From an uncultured Dongia sp. (GTDB lineage: Bacteria > Pseudomonadota > Alphaproteobacteria > Dongiales > Dongiaceae): a DNA stretch of 64,000 nucleotides. Below, one piece after another: positions 8,499 to 63,043 of this stretch. Both the position numbers and the translations under genes were made by a program. The stretch covers positions 62,001 to 126,000 of the forward strand of contig NZ_CAKZGO010000021.1 in the NCBI RefSeq assembly GCF_936916975.1, in the 5' to 3' direction. Within the stretch, counting starts at the first letter, position 1, and each line of letters opens with the position of its first letter. The notes beneath the pieces were generated by a model. That model did not search any database. It was not told the origin of the DNA and worked only from the letters and a program-made list of their open reading frames with translations.

Positions 8499-8542
8499 AG
8501 CGAGCTAGTGGCTATGATTCTGTGGGTGCGATACCGAAACGA

Positions 8543-8935
8543 TCACGAGCCAGTTTCTGTCAGGCATTCCTTGACCTCTTGTTCGGCCTGTGACGAGGAA
8601 TAAGGTGCCTTTTCCGTCTTGTGGACCAACACGACATCGTCCCAGTTTTTCTGCGAGTGATCAGCAACAAAACTGTCGACCGCGTCAAAATAGCGATCTG
8701 TCATATGCTTTTCATATTGGCGCCCCAGACACAGCCGCAGTTCATAGCTGGTATCCTCCATTCCCTCCATTTCAAGATAGATATGGTCGATAAACTTCCG
8801 ACGCATATCGACTCCGTCAAAATCTGCGCGCCCATACTGCTCGAAGATTAATTGGGAGGCCTCTGCGGAGGGTTTACCGCTGACGCAAGCCGATAGAAGA
8901 AACAATCCAGCAATAAGATTCCAAGACTTGTGCAT
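8543..8935 (-). CDS. Predicted lipoprotein, 130 aa, low GC
   Basis: ATG 8935 is preceded by GGGGAAGG about 10 nt away. The protein begins with MHKSWNLIAG and a lipobox LLSAC (Cys18), then carries a 110-residue acidic domain with three further cysteines. No family is recognised. Base composition is less G+C-rich than the flanking operons, and the gene sits beside the tRNA-Leu footprint, so it could be part of an older island. Confidence 0.62.
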   Translation of the reverse strand: MHKSWNLIAGLFLLSACVSGKPSAEASQLIFEQYGRADFDGVDMRRKFIDHIYLEMEGMEDTSYELRLCLGRQYEKHMTDRYFDAVDSFVADHSQKNWDDVVLVHKTEKAPYSSSQAEQEVKECLTETGS

Positions 8936-9023
8936 GCGCGCGATACCTTCCCCAAATGCAAGTTTGAGCAACTTACCAATGTCAACGAAACGGCGTTAAC
9001 GGAGTTGTGGTCGTGGCATGTCG

Positions 9024-9079
9024 TGGTGCCGCTGCCGGACTCGAACCGGCACGAGACTTTCATCTCTCAGGATTTTAAG
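9024..9079 (-). repeat. Partial copy of the tRNA-Leu 3' region (att-like remnant)
   Basis: This segment matches 9716-9772 of the intact tRNA-Leu in the same orientation, with one 1-nt deletion in the acceptor stem and one A/G difference. It covers the CCA end, acceptor 3' strand, T arm, variable arm and the 3' side of the anticodon arm, then identity stops abruptly. Such a fragment cannot form a tRNA; it is the usual trace of site-specific integration into the 3' half of a tRNA gene. Confidence 0.85.
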
Positions 9080-9213
9080 AAGAATGTGTTTAGAATTAAT
9101 CGAGCGATCACTGACTGTTGCAAGCCAATTTTCGACACTGTAGCAAGAATTGTAACAAGCACACTATCGAGTGCTTGCGCCCTGCTCCGATTGCGAACAC
9201 AAAGCCTCAATTG

Positions 9214-9594
9214 TCAGACGAGACTGCGAGCGACAGATTTATTTTCTGCCGCGCCATAGCGATTATCTTGCGATGCTCCGGGCATGAATCCACATTCGAG
9301 AAGAACCCAGATTGACCCAATCACAGGAACAAAATTCATCATGATCCAACCACCAGATTTACCGCGATCATGAAATCGCTTTGCGGAGGTCGCGATGTTG
9401 ACCCAAATACAAACAGCCACAAGCAGCCACGCCAATAGAATTGCTGCGCCATTCAATTCTTGTATCGGGATTTCATATGCATTTAACGAGATAAAAAAGA
9501 ACAACTGGTAAGCGACGATGGCGGCTTGCGCCAACCACCATTGCATTCGAGAAAAACGGCCTTCGTACGAAAAGAAAAACTGCCAAGTACGCAT
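9214..9594 (-). CDS. DUF805 inner-membrane protein
   Basis: The 126-residue protein has the family's N-terminal pattern (FSYEGRFSRMQWW), then hydrophobic segments near residues 23-42 and 50-70, the motif AKRFHDRGKSGGW and a final membrane segment. DUF805 proteins (E. coli YhaH/YhaI type) are small multi-pass membrane proteins of unknown function, common in phage and island cargo. ATG 9594 is chosen over 9612 because GGGGGAA precedes it at about 5 nt. It is the only gene between the two tRNA-Leu-derived repeats. Confidence 0.85.
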   Translation of the reverse strand: MRTWQFFFSYEGRFSRMQWWLAQAAIVAYQLFFFISLNAYEIPIQELNGAAILLAWLLVAVCIWVNIATSAKRFHDRGKSGGWIMMNFVPVIGSIWVLLECGFMPGASQDNRYGAAENKSVARSLV

Positions 9595-9715
9595 ATGATT
9601 CCCCCAACTCATCTGGTCCCCAACTCGTCGGCAGACGTATTTTATCGACTACAACCGCATTGAGAAGAAAAAAATCTTCGCTTCTACCAGTTGTATAGGA
9701 TGAAATAATCGGAAT

Positions 9716-9804
9716 TGGTGCCCGCTGCCGGACTCGAACCGGCACGAGACTTTCGTCTCTCAGGATTTTAAGTCCTGTGTGTCTACCAATTCCACCAAGC
9801 GGGC
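9716..9804 (-). tRNA. tRNA-Leu (anticodon UAA)
   Basis: Read on the minus strand, the gene has a 7-bp acceptor stem (GCCCGCT / AGCGGGC), an anticodon stem CAGGA/TCCTG around the loop CTTAAAA (anticodon TAA), a long class II variable arm (AGAC-GAAA-GTCT), a T arm GCCGG/CCGGC with the TTCGAGT loop, and an encoded CCA end at 9716-9718. All arms pair, so it should be functional. It is the target of the integration-like duplication next to it. Confidence 0.97.
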
Positions 9805-57510: not shown

Positions 57511-60072
57511 ATGGCAGAGTTTCCGGCAAAGGCGAAGGTCGTCATCATCGGTCTGGGTGGGATCGTGGGCGCATCGGTCGCCCATCACCTGGTCGAGCGT
57601 GGCTGGGACGACATCGTCGGCATCGACAAGTCCGGCGTGCCCACCGACATCGGCTCGACGGCCCATGCCTCCGACTTCTGCTACATGACCAGCCACGACT
57701 TCCTGTCCTGCTGGTCCTCGCTCTACTCGATCGATTTCTATTCGAAGCTCGGACATTACGAGCGCATCGGCGGCCTCGAGATCGCGCGCGTCGGTGATGA
57801 CGGCCGCATGGACGAGATCAAGCGCAAGGTCTCCTCGGCCAAGGCCTTCGGCACTCGCGCGCGCCTGATCGACCCGGCCGAGATCAAGAAGAAATTCCCG
57901 TTGATCGAGGAAGACAAGGTCCAGGGCGGCCTGTGGGACCCCGATGCCGGCCTCGTCATCCCGCGCTCGCAGACCGTCGCCGGCAAGCTGGTCGAACAGG
58001 CCGAGGCCGCCGGCAAGCTCAAAGTCTTCGCCCACACCTCGGCCACGTCGCTGGTCATCGAGAACGGCCGCCTCAAGGGTGTCGTCACCGACCGCGGCAC
58101 CATCATGGCCGATTACGTCGTGGTCTGCGCCGGCCTCTGGGGCCGCCTGATCGCTGAAATGGCAGGTGAGGATCTGCCGGTCATGCCGGTCGACCACCCG
58201 CTCTGCTTCTTCGGGCCCTATACCGAATTCGCCAAGACCGGCAAGGAAATCGGCTGGCCGCTGCTCCGCGACCAGGGCAACTCCGCCTATATGCGCGACA
58301 CCGGCGATCCCACCACGGCCGAAGGCGGCATGATCGAATGGGGCTATTACGAGGAAAAGAACCCGCGCCTCCTGCATCCGCGCGACCTCCTCGAAAAGCA
58401 CGAAGCGCGCCTCTCCCCCTCGCAGCGCGACCTCGACATGGACCAGATCATCGAGCCCCTGGAACGCGCCATCGAACTCACCCCGATCCTCGCCGAGCTC
58501 GGTTATGAGGAAAAGCGCTCGTTCAACGGCCTCCTCCAGGTCACGACCGATGGCGGCCCCTCCATCGGCGAAAGCCAGAAGGTCCGCGGCCTCTGGTACG
58601 CGGTCGGCATCTGGGTCAAGGACGGCCCCGGCATGGGCAAGCTCATCGCCGATTGGATGACCGACGGCCGCACGCCGATCGACCACAACCGGATCGATTT
58701 CTCCCGCTTCTATCCGCATATGATGGAAGAGAAGTTCATCGAGGGCCGTTGCGGCGAAGCTGCGCGCAAGATCTACAACCCCGCCGTCCATCCTCGCGAA
58801 CCCTATGACACCGGCCGCAACGTCCGCCGCTCGCCCTTCTACGAGCGCGAAAAGGAACTCGGCGCCTATTTCATGGAGCTTGGTGGCTGGGAACGTGCCC
58901 ATGGCTATGCCGCCAACGAGCATTTGCTGCAGAAATACGGCAACCGCGTCCCGATGCGCGAGAACGAATGGGACAACCGCCATTTCTGGCGCGTTTCCAA
59001 TGCCGAGCATCTCGCGATGAGCGAGGATTGCGGCATCGTCAACCTGTCGCATTTTGCCATCATCGACATCGAAGGCCCCGATCACGTGGCACTGCTGGAA
59101 TGGCTGTGCGCGGCCAAGGTCGGCGGCGACAACATGATCGGCAAGGGTATCTACACGCACTTCCTCGATGATGAAGGCATGGTGCGCGCCGACTTCACCG
59201 TCATCCGCATGGCCGACCGCTGCCGGTTCATCGACGGCGCCGATGCCGGCCCCCGCGACTTCCACTACATGCGCCGCGTGGCCGAAGACAAAGGCTTCGA
59301 CGTCACCATCACCGACGTGACCTCGCACTATGTCACCATCGGCATCTGGGGCCCGAATGCCCGCACGACGCTGCAGAAGGTCGTTGAGGATCCCGCCGGT
59401 CTCAGCCATGAGGCCTTCCCCTTTGCCGCGATCAAGCCGCTCAAGATCGGCGGCAAGAACGTCGCCGCCTTCCGCATCTCCTATGTCGGCGAGCAAGGCT
59501 GGGAACTTCACATGAAGTATGAAGACGGCCTCGCCGTCTGGGACGCCCTGCGCTCGACCGGCGTCATGGCCTTCGGCGTCGAGACCTACGCCAACAGCCG
59601 TCGCATGGAAAAATGCCTGCGCCTGCAGAACGCCGACCTGCTGACAGAGTACAACCTGATCGAATCCGATCTCGCCCGCCCGAAGGTCAAGGATGTCGAT
59701 TTCCGCGGCAAGGCGAAGCACCTCGAATACAAGGCCCGTGAGCACCAGCCCGCCATGCTGTGCACCCTCGTCATGACCGACAACATCGACAAAAAGGGCG
59801 TCGCCCGCTACCCCGTCGGCAACATGCCGGTAATGGACCCGACGACGGGTGAGACCCTGGTCGACGAACTCGGCCGCAGGTCTTTCACCACCTCGGTCGC
59901 CTACGGCCCCACCATCGGCAAGAACATCGCGCTGGCATACCTGCCCTGGGCCTACTGCCAGACCGGCCGCAAGCTGCAGGTCGAATACTTCAGCGAAACC
60001 TACCCGGTCGAAGTCGTCGCCATCGGCTACAAGCCGCTTTATGACCCGGAGAATTTGAAACCGCGGACGTGA
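57511..60072 (+). CDS. FAD-dependent oxidoreductase with GcvT domain (dimethylglycine/sarcosine dehydrogenase family)
   Basis: The 853-residue protein has an N-terminal DAO-type FAD domain (VVIIGLGGIVGASVAHHL, STAHASDFCY; residues 8-400) and a C-terminal GcvT tetrahydrofolate-binding region (about 430-850: GYAANEHLLQKYG, GKGIYTHFLDDEGMV). This is the layout of dimethylglycine dehydrogenase and sarcosine dehydrogenase, which oxidatively demethylate N-methylglycines. The motif IIGLGGIVG differs from the usual GxGxxG by having Leu at the first Gly position. Divergent from the second MttB gene. Confidence 0.92.
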   Translation: MAEFPAKAKVVIIGLGGIVGASVAHHLVERGWDDIVGIDKSGVPTDIGSTAHASDFCYMTSHDFLSCWSSLYSIDFYSKLGHYERIGGLEIARVGDDGRMDEIKRKVSSAKAFGTRARLIDPAEIKKKFPLIEEDKVQGGLWDPDAGLVIPRSQTVAGKLVEQAEAAGKLKVFAHTSATSLVIENGRLKGVVTDRGTIMADYVVVCAGLWGRLIAEMAGEDLPVMPVDHPLCFFGPYTEFAKTGKEIGWPLLRDQGNSAYMRDTGDPTTAEGGMIEWGYYEEKNPRLLHPRDLLEKHEARLSPSQRDLDMDQIIEPLERAIELTPILAELGYEEKRSFNGLLQVTTDGGPSIGESQKVRGLWYAVGIWVKDGPGMGKLIADWMTDGRTPIDHNRIDFSRFYPHMMEEKFIEGRCGEAARKIYNPAVHPREPYDTGRNVRRSPFYEREKELGAYFMELGGWERAHGYAANEHLLQKYGNRVPMRENEWDNRHFWRVSNAEHLAMSEDCGIVNLSHFAIIDIEGPDHVALLEWLCAAKVGGDNMIGKGIYTHFLDDEGMVRADFTVIRMADRCRFIDGADAGPRDFHYMRRVAEDKGFDVTITDVTSHYVTIGIWGPNARTTLQKVVEDPAGLSHEAFPFAAIKPLKIGGKNVAAFRISYVGEQGWELHMKYEDGLAVWDALRSTGVMAFGVETYANSRRMEKCLRLQNADLLTEYNLIESDLARPKVKDVDFRGKAKHLEYKAREHQPAMLCTLVMTDNIDKKGVARYPVGNMPVMDPTTGETLVDELGRRSFTTSVAYGPTIGKNIALAYLPWAYCQTGRKLQVEYFSETYPVEVVAIGYKPLYDPENLKPRT

Positions 60073-60105
60073 TGTCCGGAAGCTGAAACATCGGACCTAA
60101 ATGAG

Positions 60106-60136
60106 AAACGCCCCGGCCGAAAGACCGGGGCGTTTT
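60106..60136 (+). terminator. Intrinsic terminator after the FAD-GcvT gene
   Basis: Arms 60106-60116 and 60126-60136 (AAACGCCCCGG/CCGGGGCGTTT) pair over 11 bp with a 9-nt loop, followed by TGAG, 33 bp past the stop. Effective in both directions because of the A/T arms. Confidence 0.8.
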
Positions 60137-60163
60137 GAGTAGGATAGCGGGCAGAAGATCCAT

Positions 60164-61936
60164 TCAGAATCGCTTTGCAATCTCCGCGATCTCCTTCGGA
60201 TTCTTCGCGCTGACAGTCGCGTCGGCGCTACGCCAGAACACCTCATTGCCTATGTATGAAAGATCCTTCTGAGGTGGGACCGTTATAACTATCATTCCCA
60301 TACCAAAAAATGAGTTGTAGTCGATGTTAGCAAGGACTGCGCCTTTCAATGCATCGGATAACTTCGAATTCGCTATCCCATCCCGCAAGATCTCAAAATA
60401 CTTCTCAACAGCAATTCCTAGACGCTTCGCTTCTCTATCCACTCCGACGATAAAGCGGCGCCCAAATTTCTTCGCTTTAATTTTATCGATTTCCTCGATC
60501 CTAGATGCATCCTTCGCCTTATCCACAACTCCTATTAAGATACAGCCCGAAGAATGCGGACCAATATTTGCCATCCCGCAGATTGTTTTAACGATTTTGT
60601 CGATTATCCCCGGATCTACGCCACCCTTTGGTTCGAGCTTAAGGAGCCCTTGCTTAAGCTCGTAATTTGCTAGCTCAATTTCCGAGCGACGAATAGAGGC
60701 TTCAATATCTATGGTTGTGTAATTGTTATAGATTTTCTTCTTCTGTTTCTTTGTCTTTACGCAACACGTTTGAAGCAGCCCTTTAATCGTATCGACGTTT
60801 TTCTGCCGTTCCTCAGATGAGGTAGCCTTCCTGCCGGCCGCAATTCTGTTGGAAAGATTACGAATTGCTTTCTTCGCTCCTTGATAGTTACTAATTTTCT
60901 GCCCAGCGCCTATTAGCAATTCGTGAACGGCAACAAGAAGCACAGCGAAAACAGATGGAAAAGCATTTGTCGTTTTCTTCTCGAAAACGATTTCTCTCAG
61001 TTTCTCGGGTCTGTCCTCCGAACAAATTTTGATGATCTCTTGAATGCAAAACTTAAATTCATCAGAGAACTGTTCCGCGCCGTAGTCTTCGAGGGCTTTC
61101 AAGATTCTAACGCATTCAGGATTCTTCTCAGAATAGATATCGTCGAGTGCGTCCTTTGAACGCTCGATCAATTGCCCGCCAACAATGCAAGCAGAAATAT
61201 CAGCAATGCACTGCTCATCCATACTATCTCTAAGATCCGTCGATCGCAGAATTCCTTGCTCAACCCAAAAAACTTCTTCCGCTTGAATTTCATACCCATG
61301 CTTGGTCATTGGCAAATCAATGCTGATCGATGGCATGGATCGCAGAAGCAAGACAGGTGATGAAACGTCTCCGCGTAGGCTGCAAGCCAGATCTCTTACC
61401 ATTACAGAAAACTCGTTCTGCACGCCGGCCTGCCGACGCTCTTGGTCGCTGAGCCTGTGCCCGTATGTATTGATCCGACCAAAGACATCGTTCACGTCCT
61501 CTTCGCTAGCATTTCTCATTACCGAGAAAGCCAAAGAGTAGTCGAGTATTGTCGATACATCCTTGGGAGTCAGATATTTTTCTCCCTTGGTCGGTTCAAA
61601 TTTCCCCTCGTCGGCGTAGGATTTTGCCGTCGGAAAATGCTCCAGATTGAAATAGCGCTGCTGTAAGGTTGCAAACGACGTCTCAATGAACGACACGATG
61701 GCATGCAATCTTTGAAGACCATCGATTATTTCGTAACTCCCGGGAGAGTCATTCTTCTCCGCAATGAGAATTGCCGGAATTGGGTACTTCTTGAGAATTG
61801 ATTCAATCAGCCGTTGCTTCTCTTCCAACGTCCACACGAGCTTGCGCTGGTACCGTCTATTGACAAAAAGCCGATCCTCGCGAAACCACGAGTAAATTGT
61901 TTGAACTGACATTGGCAAGGAGTTGAGTTCGGCCAT
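60164..61936 (-). CDS. DUF262 - AlbA_2 (Schlafen-like) fusion protein, candidate defence gene
   Basis: The 590-residue protein has an N-terminal DUF262/ParB-GmrSD-like domain: RRYQRKLVW at 27-35, LIESILKKYPIP at 43-54, the DGLQR signature at 72-76 (canonical DGQQR), and FGRINTYGHRLSDQERRQAG at 152-171. A helical middle (172-410) lacks a recognisable HNH/DUF1524 nuclease. The C-terminal part (about 411-590) is an AlbA_2/Schlafen-like domain: YELKQG, ICGMANIGPHSSGCILIGVVD, IVITVPPQKDL, EVFWRSADATVSA. DUF262 proteins are known in type IV restriction and other anti-phage systems. The gene is AT-rich and stands alone, so recent transfer is likely. Function inferred. Confidence 0.75.
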   Translation of the reverse strand: MAELNSLPMSVQTIYSWFREDRLFVNRRYQRKLVWTLEEKQRLIESILKKYPIPAILIAEKNDSPGSYEIIDGLQRLHAIVSFIETSFATLQQRYFNLEHFPTAKSYADEGKFEPTKGEKYLTPKDVSTILDYSLAFSVMRNASEEDVNDVFGRINTYGHRLSDQERRQAGVQNEFSVMVRDLACSLRGDVSSPVLLLRSMPSISIDLPMTKHGYEIQAEEVFWVEQGILRSTDLRDSMDEQCIADISACIVGGQLIERSKDALDDIYSEKNPECVRILKALEDYGAEQFSDEFKFCIQEIIKICSEDRPEKLREIVFEKKTTNAFPSVFAVLLVAVHELLIGAGQKISNYQGAKKAIRNLSNRIAAGRKATSSEERQKNVDTIKGLLQTCCVKTKKQKKKIYNNYTTIDIEASIRRSEIELANYELKQGLLKLEPKGGVDPGIIDKIVKTICGMANIGPHSSGCILIGVVDKAKDASRIEEIDKIKAKKFGRRFIVGVDREAKRLGIAVEKYFEILRDGIANSKLSDALKGAVLANIDYNSFFGMGMIVITVPPQKDLSYIGNEVFWRSADATVSAKNPKEIAEIAKRF

Positions 61937-62107
61937 CTCATCCTCTTATTTTGGAAGTCCTTCGCTCACCCCAGATGGGAGCAATCTACTACAACAAGTA
62001 ATAGAAGACTAACCGGATCATTGTCCAACTCAACTATCCGATAGTCAGGGGCATTGTATATGGGCTATTTTTGATTTTGCACCCCAATAGATTGTCGATG
62101 TTCCCTC

Positions 62108-63043
62108 ATGCTATCCTCCCGTGTCCCTGCTCCCACCTCCATCAGCCAACCCGCCCAGAAATTCCTGCGGAACGCGCCCGCCATCACCGCACGGCCGATG
62201 GACCTGCCGGCACTGGACAAGCGGCGGCGGGATACGCATGCGTTCTATGCGCCGGCGGGATACAAGCTGCTGGGCGAACTCGGTGGCACCGCCGACGAGG
62301 TGACGCTGGGCGCGGTGCGGGTGCAGCGCATCACGCCGAAGAACGCGACAGCGACGAACGTCATTCTCTATCTCTTCGGCGGCGGATATGTGCAGGGATC
62401 GCCGGATGAGGATCTGGAGATCACGGCGCAACTGGCGGACCTCACCGCGCAGCGCATTTATGCGCCCCATTACGCCCTCGCTCCGGAGAAGCCGTTTCCC
62501 GCAGCGCTCGACGATGCGCTTGCCGCCTACCGTGCCCTGGCGGCTGAACAGGGTGCCGCGAACATCACGGTCATGGGCGAATCCGCCGGCGCAGGCCTGG
62601 CCCTGCTCACGATGCTGGCGGCCTCCAGGGCGGGGCTGCCGATGCCGCGCAAGCTGGTACTGCTCTCTCCCTGGTCGGATCTTGCCAAGACCGGCGATAC
62701 GCTGACGACGCTGGAAGGCTGCGATCCCTCATTGCATTACGAGATGACCCTGGAGCCGGCGGCGAAGGCCTTTGCCGCGGGGCGCGACCTCACCTCGCCG
62801 GATGTCTCGCCGCTCTATGCGGACTATCCCAAGAGCTTTCCCAAGACGCTGATCACCACCGGGACCCGCGACCTGTTCCTCAGCGACTGCGCGCGGCTCT
62901 CGACCAAAATGCGCGCGGCCGGCATCGATTGCGAGTTGCGCGTCTGGGAAGGGATGTGGCACGTCTTCGAGTATTACACCGAGTTGCCGGAGGCGCAGGC
63001 GTCCCTGGCCGAGATCGCACGCTTCATCACGGGGCCGGGCTGA
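62108..63043 (+). CDS. Alpha/beta hydrolase, HSL-type esterase
   Basis: The 311-residue protein has the HSL-family layout: an oxyanion-hole motif YLFGGGYVQGSP (the usual His of HGGG is Phe), the nucleophile elbow GESAGAG near residue 160, ADYP and TTGTRDLFLSD with the acid, and WHVFEYY with the catalytic His. It would hydrolyse short acyl esters in the cytoplasm. Its 3' end overlaps the convergent cytochrome b561 gene by 17 bp. Confidence 0.9.
   Translation: MLSSRVPAPTSISQPAQKFLRNAPAITARPMDLPALDKRRRDTHAFYAPAGYKLLGELGGTADEVTLGAVRVQRITPKNATATNVILYLFGGGYVQGSPDEDLEITAQLADLTAQRIYAPHYALAPEKPFPAALDDALAAYRALAAEQGAANITVMGESAGAGLALLTMLAASRAGLPMPRKLVLLSPWSDLAKTGDTLTTLEGCDPSLHYEMTLEPAAKAFAAGRDLTSPDVSPLYADYPKSFPKTLITTGTRDLFLSDCARLSTKMRAAGIDCELRVWEGMWHVFEYYTELPEAQASLAEIARFITGPG

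Follow-up and report, generated by a model that had tools for sequence, protein, structure and literature searches.

Why does one AT-rich gene sit alone between two metabolic genes of an uncultured Dongia, and what might it do there? In the window (the whole stretch of 64,000 nucleotides that was analysed), an open reading frame of 590 codons, with an ATG start and no internal stops, is the sole gene between a GCV_T/DAO dehydrogenase gene and an alpha/beta hydrolase gene. A GAGG-like ribosome site, read by eye, lies immediately 5′ of it. Its GC content is 46.0% (GC3 51%) compared to 63.2% (GC3 85%) and 66.3% (GC3 82%) for the two neighbours, which bears out the AT-rich single-gene island described in a first-pass annotation of the sequence. 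The features of the locus are as follows.

57511-60072: GCV_T/DAO dehydrogenase gene, one flank of the DUF262-Schlafen gene
60105-60137: strong GC-rich hairpin (fold z-score -3.96), common to the siblings and forming the left edge of the variable cargo
60139-62118: AT-rich inserted segment, edges approximate; siblings have other cargo or 31-632 bp instead
60164-61936, minus strand: gene for the 590-aa DUF262-helical-Schlafen (AlbA_2) protein (open reading frame; full-length phrog_26759 match; many full-length homologues at 51-64% identity)
61427-61936, minus strand: residues 1-170, DUF262/GmrSD_N domain (ParB/Srx fold) with the DGLQR motif (PF03235; SspE 6jiv; conservation)
60725-61426, minus strand: residues 171-404, helical middle domain, whose conserved block runs from R188 to E241 (AlphaFold2 models; invariant columns)
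60164-60724, minus strand: residues 405-590, Schlafen/AlbA_2 nuclease-like domain with ExxxxExK (E421, E426, K428) and D472 (Pfam; SAMD9 7ksp; motif conservation)
62108-63043: alpha/beta hydrolase gene, the other flank

The hairpin is probably the terminator of the dehydrogenase gene; the consensus terminator scan made no call at it. Promoter and terminator consensus scans across the locus gave nothing above chance, with no promoter-like site in the upstream spacer, and the direct and inverted repeats are short. Elsewhere in the window there is a second AT-rich stretch at 8500-9700 (GC 46-50% compared to 61% for the whole window), which holds small ORFs at 8543-8971, 8930-9259 and 9214-9612, adjoins a tRNA-Leu at 9716-9804 and is possibly another small island. 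A short AT-rich patch at 1600-2500 (GC 44-52% in 500-base windows starting at 1601-2001) spans the end of the ORF at 728-1891 and the spacer after it.

We asked how the site looks in the relatives. Among the seven genomes of the genus, only that of the window (G000) carries the gene. The closest sibling (G003) has flanks of 93% and 83% identity separated by 211 bp, compared to about 2 kb in the window, while in G002 they are only 31 bp apart; both are empty sites. At E≤1e-50, the gene was present in the window's own genome and in 0 of the 384 other genomes of the class that were sampled. An ordinary housekeeping gene of the lineage would not be expected to show such empty sites and deviating composition. 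Since the other six genomes of the genus all lack the gene, that explanation is already contradicted and is almost certainly wrong. The first-pass annotation had proposed comparing orthologous loci for presence and absence, and the outcome is not that of a gene of normal composition kept at the same place in all relatives.

The siblings also show what else the site can hold. In G001 we found a 701-aa AAA ATPase (L099 583-2688, minus strand) matching the AriA, Old and GajA models, and in G006 (L100 318-2035, minus strand) matches to DarT (E=7e-63) and DarG (E=3e-133). The cargo is AT-rich in both. G005 has a 125-aa ORF at the same site, whereas next to the G004 dehydrogenase the search gave no hydrolase match. 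The alignments to G001, G005 and G006 all end at 60136-60138, which puts the start of the cargo right behind the hairpin. Because the same site holds the DUF262-Schlafen gene, an OLD/GajA-like gene or DarTG, the dehydrogenase-hydrolase intergenic site is a small chromosomal defence hotspot that starts after a terminator-like hairpin. These same-site swaps are the strongest local evidence for the gene as defence cargo.

What kind of protein is encoded? The whole of it (residues 1-590) corresponds to phrog_26759 (PHROGs v4, function unknown; E=7e-239). In bacterial genomes a pattern scan picked up 47 loci, and we aligned the window protein with those of 33 of them (34 members in all); the other 14 loci are truncated, broken or imprecisely bounded. 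An AlphaFold2 model of the full protein, built from this alignment, reached a pLDDT of 86 and a pTM of 0.81. It places a ParB/Srx-like domain at about residues 1-160 and a Schlafen/SAMD9-like domain at about 405-590, with a mostly helical middle. Fold comparisons were weighed together with the Pfam and motif evidence rather than alone, because unrelated models often reach Z scores of 7-8 and the values of 8-10 seen here are modestly higher. Sequence searches of PDB chains, with the lone protein and with the alignment profile, found no convincing relative; five weak matches (histone H2B and others, E from 0.03 to 1) were rejected as chance.

The N-terminal domain is the clearer of the two. Pfam GmrSD_N (DUF262, PF03235) matches residues 18-169 with 82.4 bits compared to a cut-off of 33.2 (E=6e-23), as the first-pass annotation had expected, and matches 34 of the 34 aligned members (E≤0.01). 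Model residues 1-159 superpose on SspE, the phosphorothioate-sensing NTPase-nuclease (6jiv; Z 8.4, 144 aligned residues, rmsd 3.6). Residues 4-392 match BrxU 1-418 only loosely (Z 8.5, 288 aligned residues, rmsd 10.7), and BrxU is also the best Foldseek match of the model (E=6e-4), with a TM-score of only 0.19. The type IV restriction proteins BrxU and GmrSD thus have the DUF262 domain in common with our family.

The DGLQR motif was reported to replace DGQQR. This is correct, but it is not peculiar to the window gene. Compared to the DGQQR pocket motif of BrxU and GmrSD, D72, G73, Q75 and R76 are kept and invariant, and position 74 is hydrophobic throughout the alignment (L in 31/34, M in 3/34), so that DG[L/M]QR is a family-wide variant. 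In 19 remote relatives the motif reads DG[L/M/V]QR, again with unvarying D, G, Q and R.

At the C-terminus the protein departs from these enzymes. BrxU and GmrSD have an HNH domain (DUF1524) of their own there, while Pfam finds no DUF1524 in the window protein at E≤1, which also sets it apart from SspE. In its place is the Schlafen/AlbA_2 domain. The Pfam profile SLFN_AlbA_2 gives 22.5 bits (E=1.8e-4), below the curated cut-off of 25.3, and 32 of the 34 aligned members match at E≤0.01. Among six further relatives, L108, L112 and L076 score above the cut-off, L110 and L057 score below it and L111 has no match (E≤0.01). Because the AlphaFold2 model shows a Schlafen/SAMD9-like domain, the low score is probably a matter of sensitivity. 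Residues 405-590 (approximately) match SAMD9 (7ksp, Z 10.1, 156 aligned residues, rmsd 3.7; 9o0d, Z 9.6), DIP2311 (3lmm, Z 10.2), SLFN5 (8.7), SLFN14 (8.5) and SLFN11 (8.2). The AlbA_2 assignment rests on the fold and on the family together with a Pfam score a little under the cut-off, and neither of the two predicted domains went without a profile match.

Within this domain, the ExxxxExK motif formed by E421, E426 and K428 is found in 34 of the 34 members, and position 472 is D in 32 and N in two. In the 17 of the 19 remote relatives that are not broken, E421 and K428 are kept in every one (17/17 each), and position 426 is E in ten and D in seven. Another ExxxxExK string, at residue 288, falls outside the Schlafen fold and was put down to chance. 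In SLFN14, as described in a section of PMC12215978, the motif provides two metal-binding glutamates and one lysine, each required for tRNA cleavage. Mutating E198 and D243 of SAMD9L together is stated, in an excerpt of PMC11221667, to abolish antiviral activity; we infer that E426 and D472 are their counterparts. Because the SAMD9/Schlafen nuclease fold is accompanied by a kept ExxxxExK, the C-terminal domain should, as judged from alignment and model, be an active nuclease. The absence of a DUF1524/HNH nuclease, noted at first, need not mean that the protein lacks an effector, since AlbA_2 carries the Schlafen catalytic motif. SAMD9, SAMD9L and the Schlafen nuclease domains have the fold and ExxxxExK in common with it. 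Sensors and domain orders differ in the animal proteins, whereas here one AlbA_2 unit is placed on a DUF262 sensor.

This conservation bears on the idea that AlbA_2 only binds nucleic acid, the protein being a non-catalytic regulator or conflict protein that keeps competing plasmids and prophages in check or shuts them out. A C-terminal piece in E. coli is annotated as 'RNA-binding domain-containing', and the DUF262-DUF1524 protein PFLU4242 is reported, in a portion of PMC8544851, to cause plasmid fitness cost. In addition, a plasmid relative described below adjoins pemIK. Nevertheless, the catalytic E, E/D and K are kept in distant members and binding alone would not demand them, so we regard a binding-only role as improbable.

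Between the two domains, the helical linker of 240 residues that had been claimed corresponds to a mostly helical middle of about 230 residues in the AlphaFold2 model. Residues 166-406 folded separately gave a pLDDT of 83. Compared with the PDB, this separate model had no match above Z 2.6, and Foldseek gave none with E<0.7. The modelled middle domain thus has no recognised fold among the matches, which does not make the fold new. It contains a conserved block (RGD..., MPSISIDLP, W224 and LRDSMDE), and the strongly conserved residues are R188, D190, M201, P202, S205, W224, R236, S238, D240 and E241. The block at residues 188-241 may be a sensing or gating element. The lowest confidence of the model is at residues 208-213, inside the same block. 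At the other end of the protein, Arg-Phe forms the exact C-terminus (residues 589-590, 60167-60172) in 30 of the 34 members, a conserved tail; of the four remaining rows, three stop where the match stops.

Next, we looked for partner genes. In the window the flanks are the dehydrogenase and the hydrolase, and neither is a modification or phosphorothioation gene. A DndE search of the window's own genome gave no match, but with a control that gave signal in 0/14 genomes this negative is uninformative. Across 41 of the 47 bacterial loci we collected 148 neighbouring proteins (at least 90 aa and no more than two per side, predicted with a crude ORF caller). No conserved partner was found among them: Pfam families occur at most three times each (E≤1e-5) and PADLOC families at most four (E≤1e-10). 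This agrees with the absence of a partner gene noted at first. The conservation of the whole 590 residues without a partner supports a one-protein system.

The commonest neighbours are IS605 OrfB/Cas12f-like proteins. The first-pass annotation had suggested checking for co-occurrence with other defence genes. Among these neighbours QatC and QatD are convincing, with one match each; most of the Pfam families listed (25 of 115) belong to ordinary metabolism. For mad3, Old/AriA and a DRT polymerase the single matches are less convincing, and the DRT match may come from an ordinary DNA polymerase I, for which there is one Pfam match too.

The best PADLOC matches of the protein itself cover the N-terminal part only: Menshen NsnA at residues 6-184 (3e-33) and PD-T4-2_A at residues 14-183 (2e-18). 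NsnA is a component of Menshen (NsnABC). Both matches are parts of multi-gene systems, whereas here one gene with a fused effector stands without companion genes.

The family is found in several phyla. The tree's 33 loci represent Pseudomonadota, Actinomycetota, Cyanobacteriota, Verrucomicrobiota, Kiritimatiellota and Bacillota, and one is from an unplaced bacterium. The tree groups the phrog_26759 family by phylum with five changes, the minimum possible. It thus follows phyla fairly well, which indicates that spread was mostly within phyla. For this reason we dropped cross-phylum transfer as an argument for mobility and rest mobility on the empty site, the prophages and the plasmids. Four of six close pairs are under purifying selection (dN/dS 0.03-0.09; 0.086, 0.039, 0.028 and 0.085); of the other two, one gives 0.455 and one is saturated. 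Broken copies occur at L025, L027, L041, L043 and the viral locus L074.

Scanning viral contigs, we found 33 loci. The commonest neighbour families are portal and terminase, based on 134 neighbour proteins from 27 loci. Because this set covers 134 of 168 listed proteins and 27 of the 33 loci, we recounted the arrangement in every one of the 33, using the L057 proteins for portal, terminase, scaffold and replication (gpA); the L057 genes match phage GPA (PF05840), portal and terminase in Pfam. In 10 of the 33 loci (L057, L059, L060, L062, L063, L064, L067, L074, L076 and L078) the gene has gpA on its upstream side and gpQ, which encodes the portal, on its downstream side. Two loci cut by contig ends show one side, the portal side in L066 and the gpA side in L082. 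L075 is a P2-like element too, but there the gene lies outside gpA-gpQ, with the portal about 7-8 kb downstream. The arrangement is absent from the remaining viral loci at that threshold.

The gpA-gpQ interval is described in a passage of PMC9122126 as a P2 anti-phage hotspot. The nine proteins compared from this site fall into four lineages: one cluster has at least about 97% identity, and the others have about 60%, 57% and 32% identity to it. With at least four lineages in the same place, the place has been occupied repeatedly. Matches in phage records were a different matter. None of the 79 matching records covers 80% of the protein in one place, and we rejected them as family members, the 40 listed of the 79 being confined to residues 1-202 and looking like other DUF262 proteins.

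Plasmids carry the gene as well. Among 1,539 matching plasmid records, 144 cover at least 80% of the protein in one place, examples being plasmids of Polaromonas, Citrobacter (IncC), Azotobacter, Lactiplantibacillus and E. coli (IncF). On the Lactiplantibacillus plasmid (L111 1516-7767), genes for a cytosine methyltransferase, a PLD-type restriction enzyme and a Z1 protein immediately precede the relative. The IncF relative (L113, L114 and others) is distant, with 29% identity, and adjoins pemIK in the three E. coli records viewed.

Many copies of the IncF gene are fragmented. The gene was matched in 803 of 5,426 complete E. coli genomes, but only 105 of these have at least 80% of it in a single place and the others have shorter pieces. 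Even among the 105, one copy or more consists of joined pieces around insertion elements. Of the ten E. coli records listed, the first 72% is present in four, the last 28% in three and 2% in one. The break between the 72% and 28% pieces is near the start of the nuclease domain, and one broken example adjoins an IS1 remnant and resistance genes. The fragmented copies fit a costly effector; a single old insertion on a successful plasmid would look identical.

Cost and company of this kind could also point to a toxin or addiction module that keeps its element stable and defends against phages only secondarily. In G006 the same chromosomal site is taken by DarTG, the plasmid relative adjoins pemIK, and the broken copies suggest a cost, as might be expected of such a module. 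Nonetheless, no antitoxin-like partner is conserved in the 41 bacterial loci, and we consider this explanation very improbable.

Taken together, the sibling hotspot with its OLD-like and DarTG cargo, the empty closest sibling, the P2-like hotspot and the lack of a partner in 41 loci uphold the earlier suggestion of a stand-alone defence protein. We think it probable, with some reserve, that the gene is a mobile single-gene and probably abortive anti-phage system, in which a DUF262 sensor licenses a Schlafen-type RNase. The domains, motifs, selection, presence on mobile elements and hotspot position may be taken as established on sequence and model grounds. A defence role is well supported; the trigger, the use of NTP, the RNA substrate and the abortive outcome are what we infer from related systems.

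How might such a system work? In an uninfected cell the DUF262-Schlafen protein would be inactive. By analogy with GmrSD, BrxU and SspE, the DUF262 domain would bind NTP and recognise a feature of phage DNA such as a modified base or backbone. In those proteins, according to part of PMC10952713, the DUF262 NTPase recognises modified DNA or couples recognition to the HNH nuclease. Nucleotide turnover or a rearrangement would then be relayed by the helical middle and free the Schlafen domain. The freed domain would cut tRNA or other RNA, translation would stop and the infection would be aborted; the sequence fits an RNA or a DNA substrate. Overall, this would be a type-IV-restriction-like sensor with the HNH DNase swapped for a Schlafen RNase. 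Several Schlafen-linked prokaryotic systems are presented in a section of PMC12839542 as anti-phage modules that cleave tRNAs. We hold only tentatively the specific version, in which modified-DNA sensing by a type-IV-restriction sensor leads to Schlafen tRNA cleavage within one protein, through a helical transmission domain without a recognised solved fold.

The chief rival is direct restriction, where the same sensor would direct a Schlafen-type domain that cuts or nicks the invading DNA, making a type IV enzyme with a swapped nuclease. The characterised DUF262-DUF1524 proteins GmrSD, BrxU and SspE act on DNA (portions of PMC10952713), BrxU is the best Foldseek match despite its low TM-score, and a passage of PMC12215978 likens the active centre of SLFN proteins to restriction endonucleases. 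On the other hand, the closest folds of the effector domain include RNases (the SAMD9 tRNase domain and SLFN5, 14 and 11), and ExxxxExK is, in the same source, the motif needed for tRNA cleavage. Direct restriction is accordingly unlikely in our estimate, and we return to the DUF262-licensed RNase as the preferred reading.

Both domains and the general logic are known. HEPN-ParB(DUF262) fusions were tabulated in 2013 (an excerpt of PMC3710099) and likewise join an RNase-type domain to ParB/DUF262, with HEPN instead of Schlafen and with HNH in the DUF262 case cited there. Because of these fusions the principle of DUF262 plus RNase is less new. In the literature covered, to which a 2025 preprint on bacterial Schlafens does not belong, we found no description of a DUF262-Schlafen/AlbA_2 fusion, its hotspot habitat or sensor-to-RNase coupling.

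The gene is a partner-free, portable candidate defence gene found on chromosomes, P2-like prophages and plasmids in several phyla, and it occupies anti-phage hotspots in two unrelated settings, the genus site and the P2-like gpA-gpQ interval. It is a single gene and its catalytic residues are clear, so two classes of point mutants can put the idea to the test. The predicted coupling is unusual in that a DUF262 sensor would act on a Schlafen RNase and not on an HNH DNase. If this is true, the DUF262 switch would be modular, and sensing of modified DNA would be joined directly to translation shutdown. The family would then be a compact bacterial counterpart of animal SAMD9/Schlafen immunity, and a relative that informs the origin of these nucleases.
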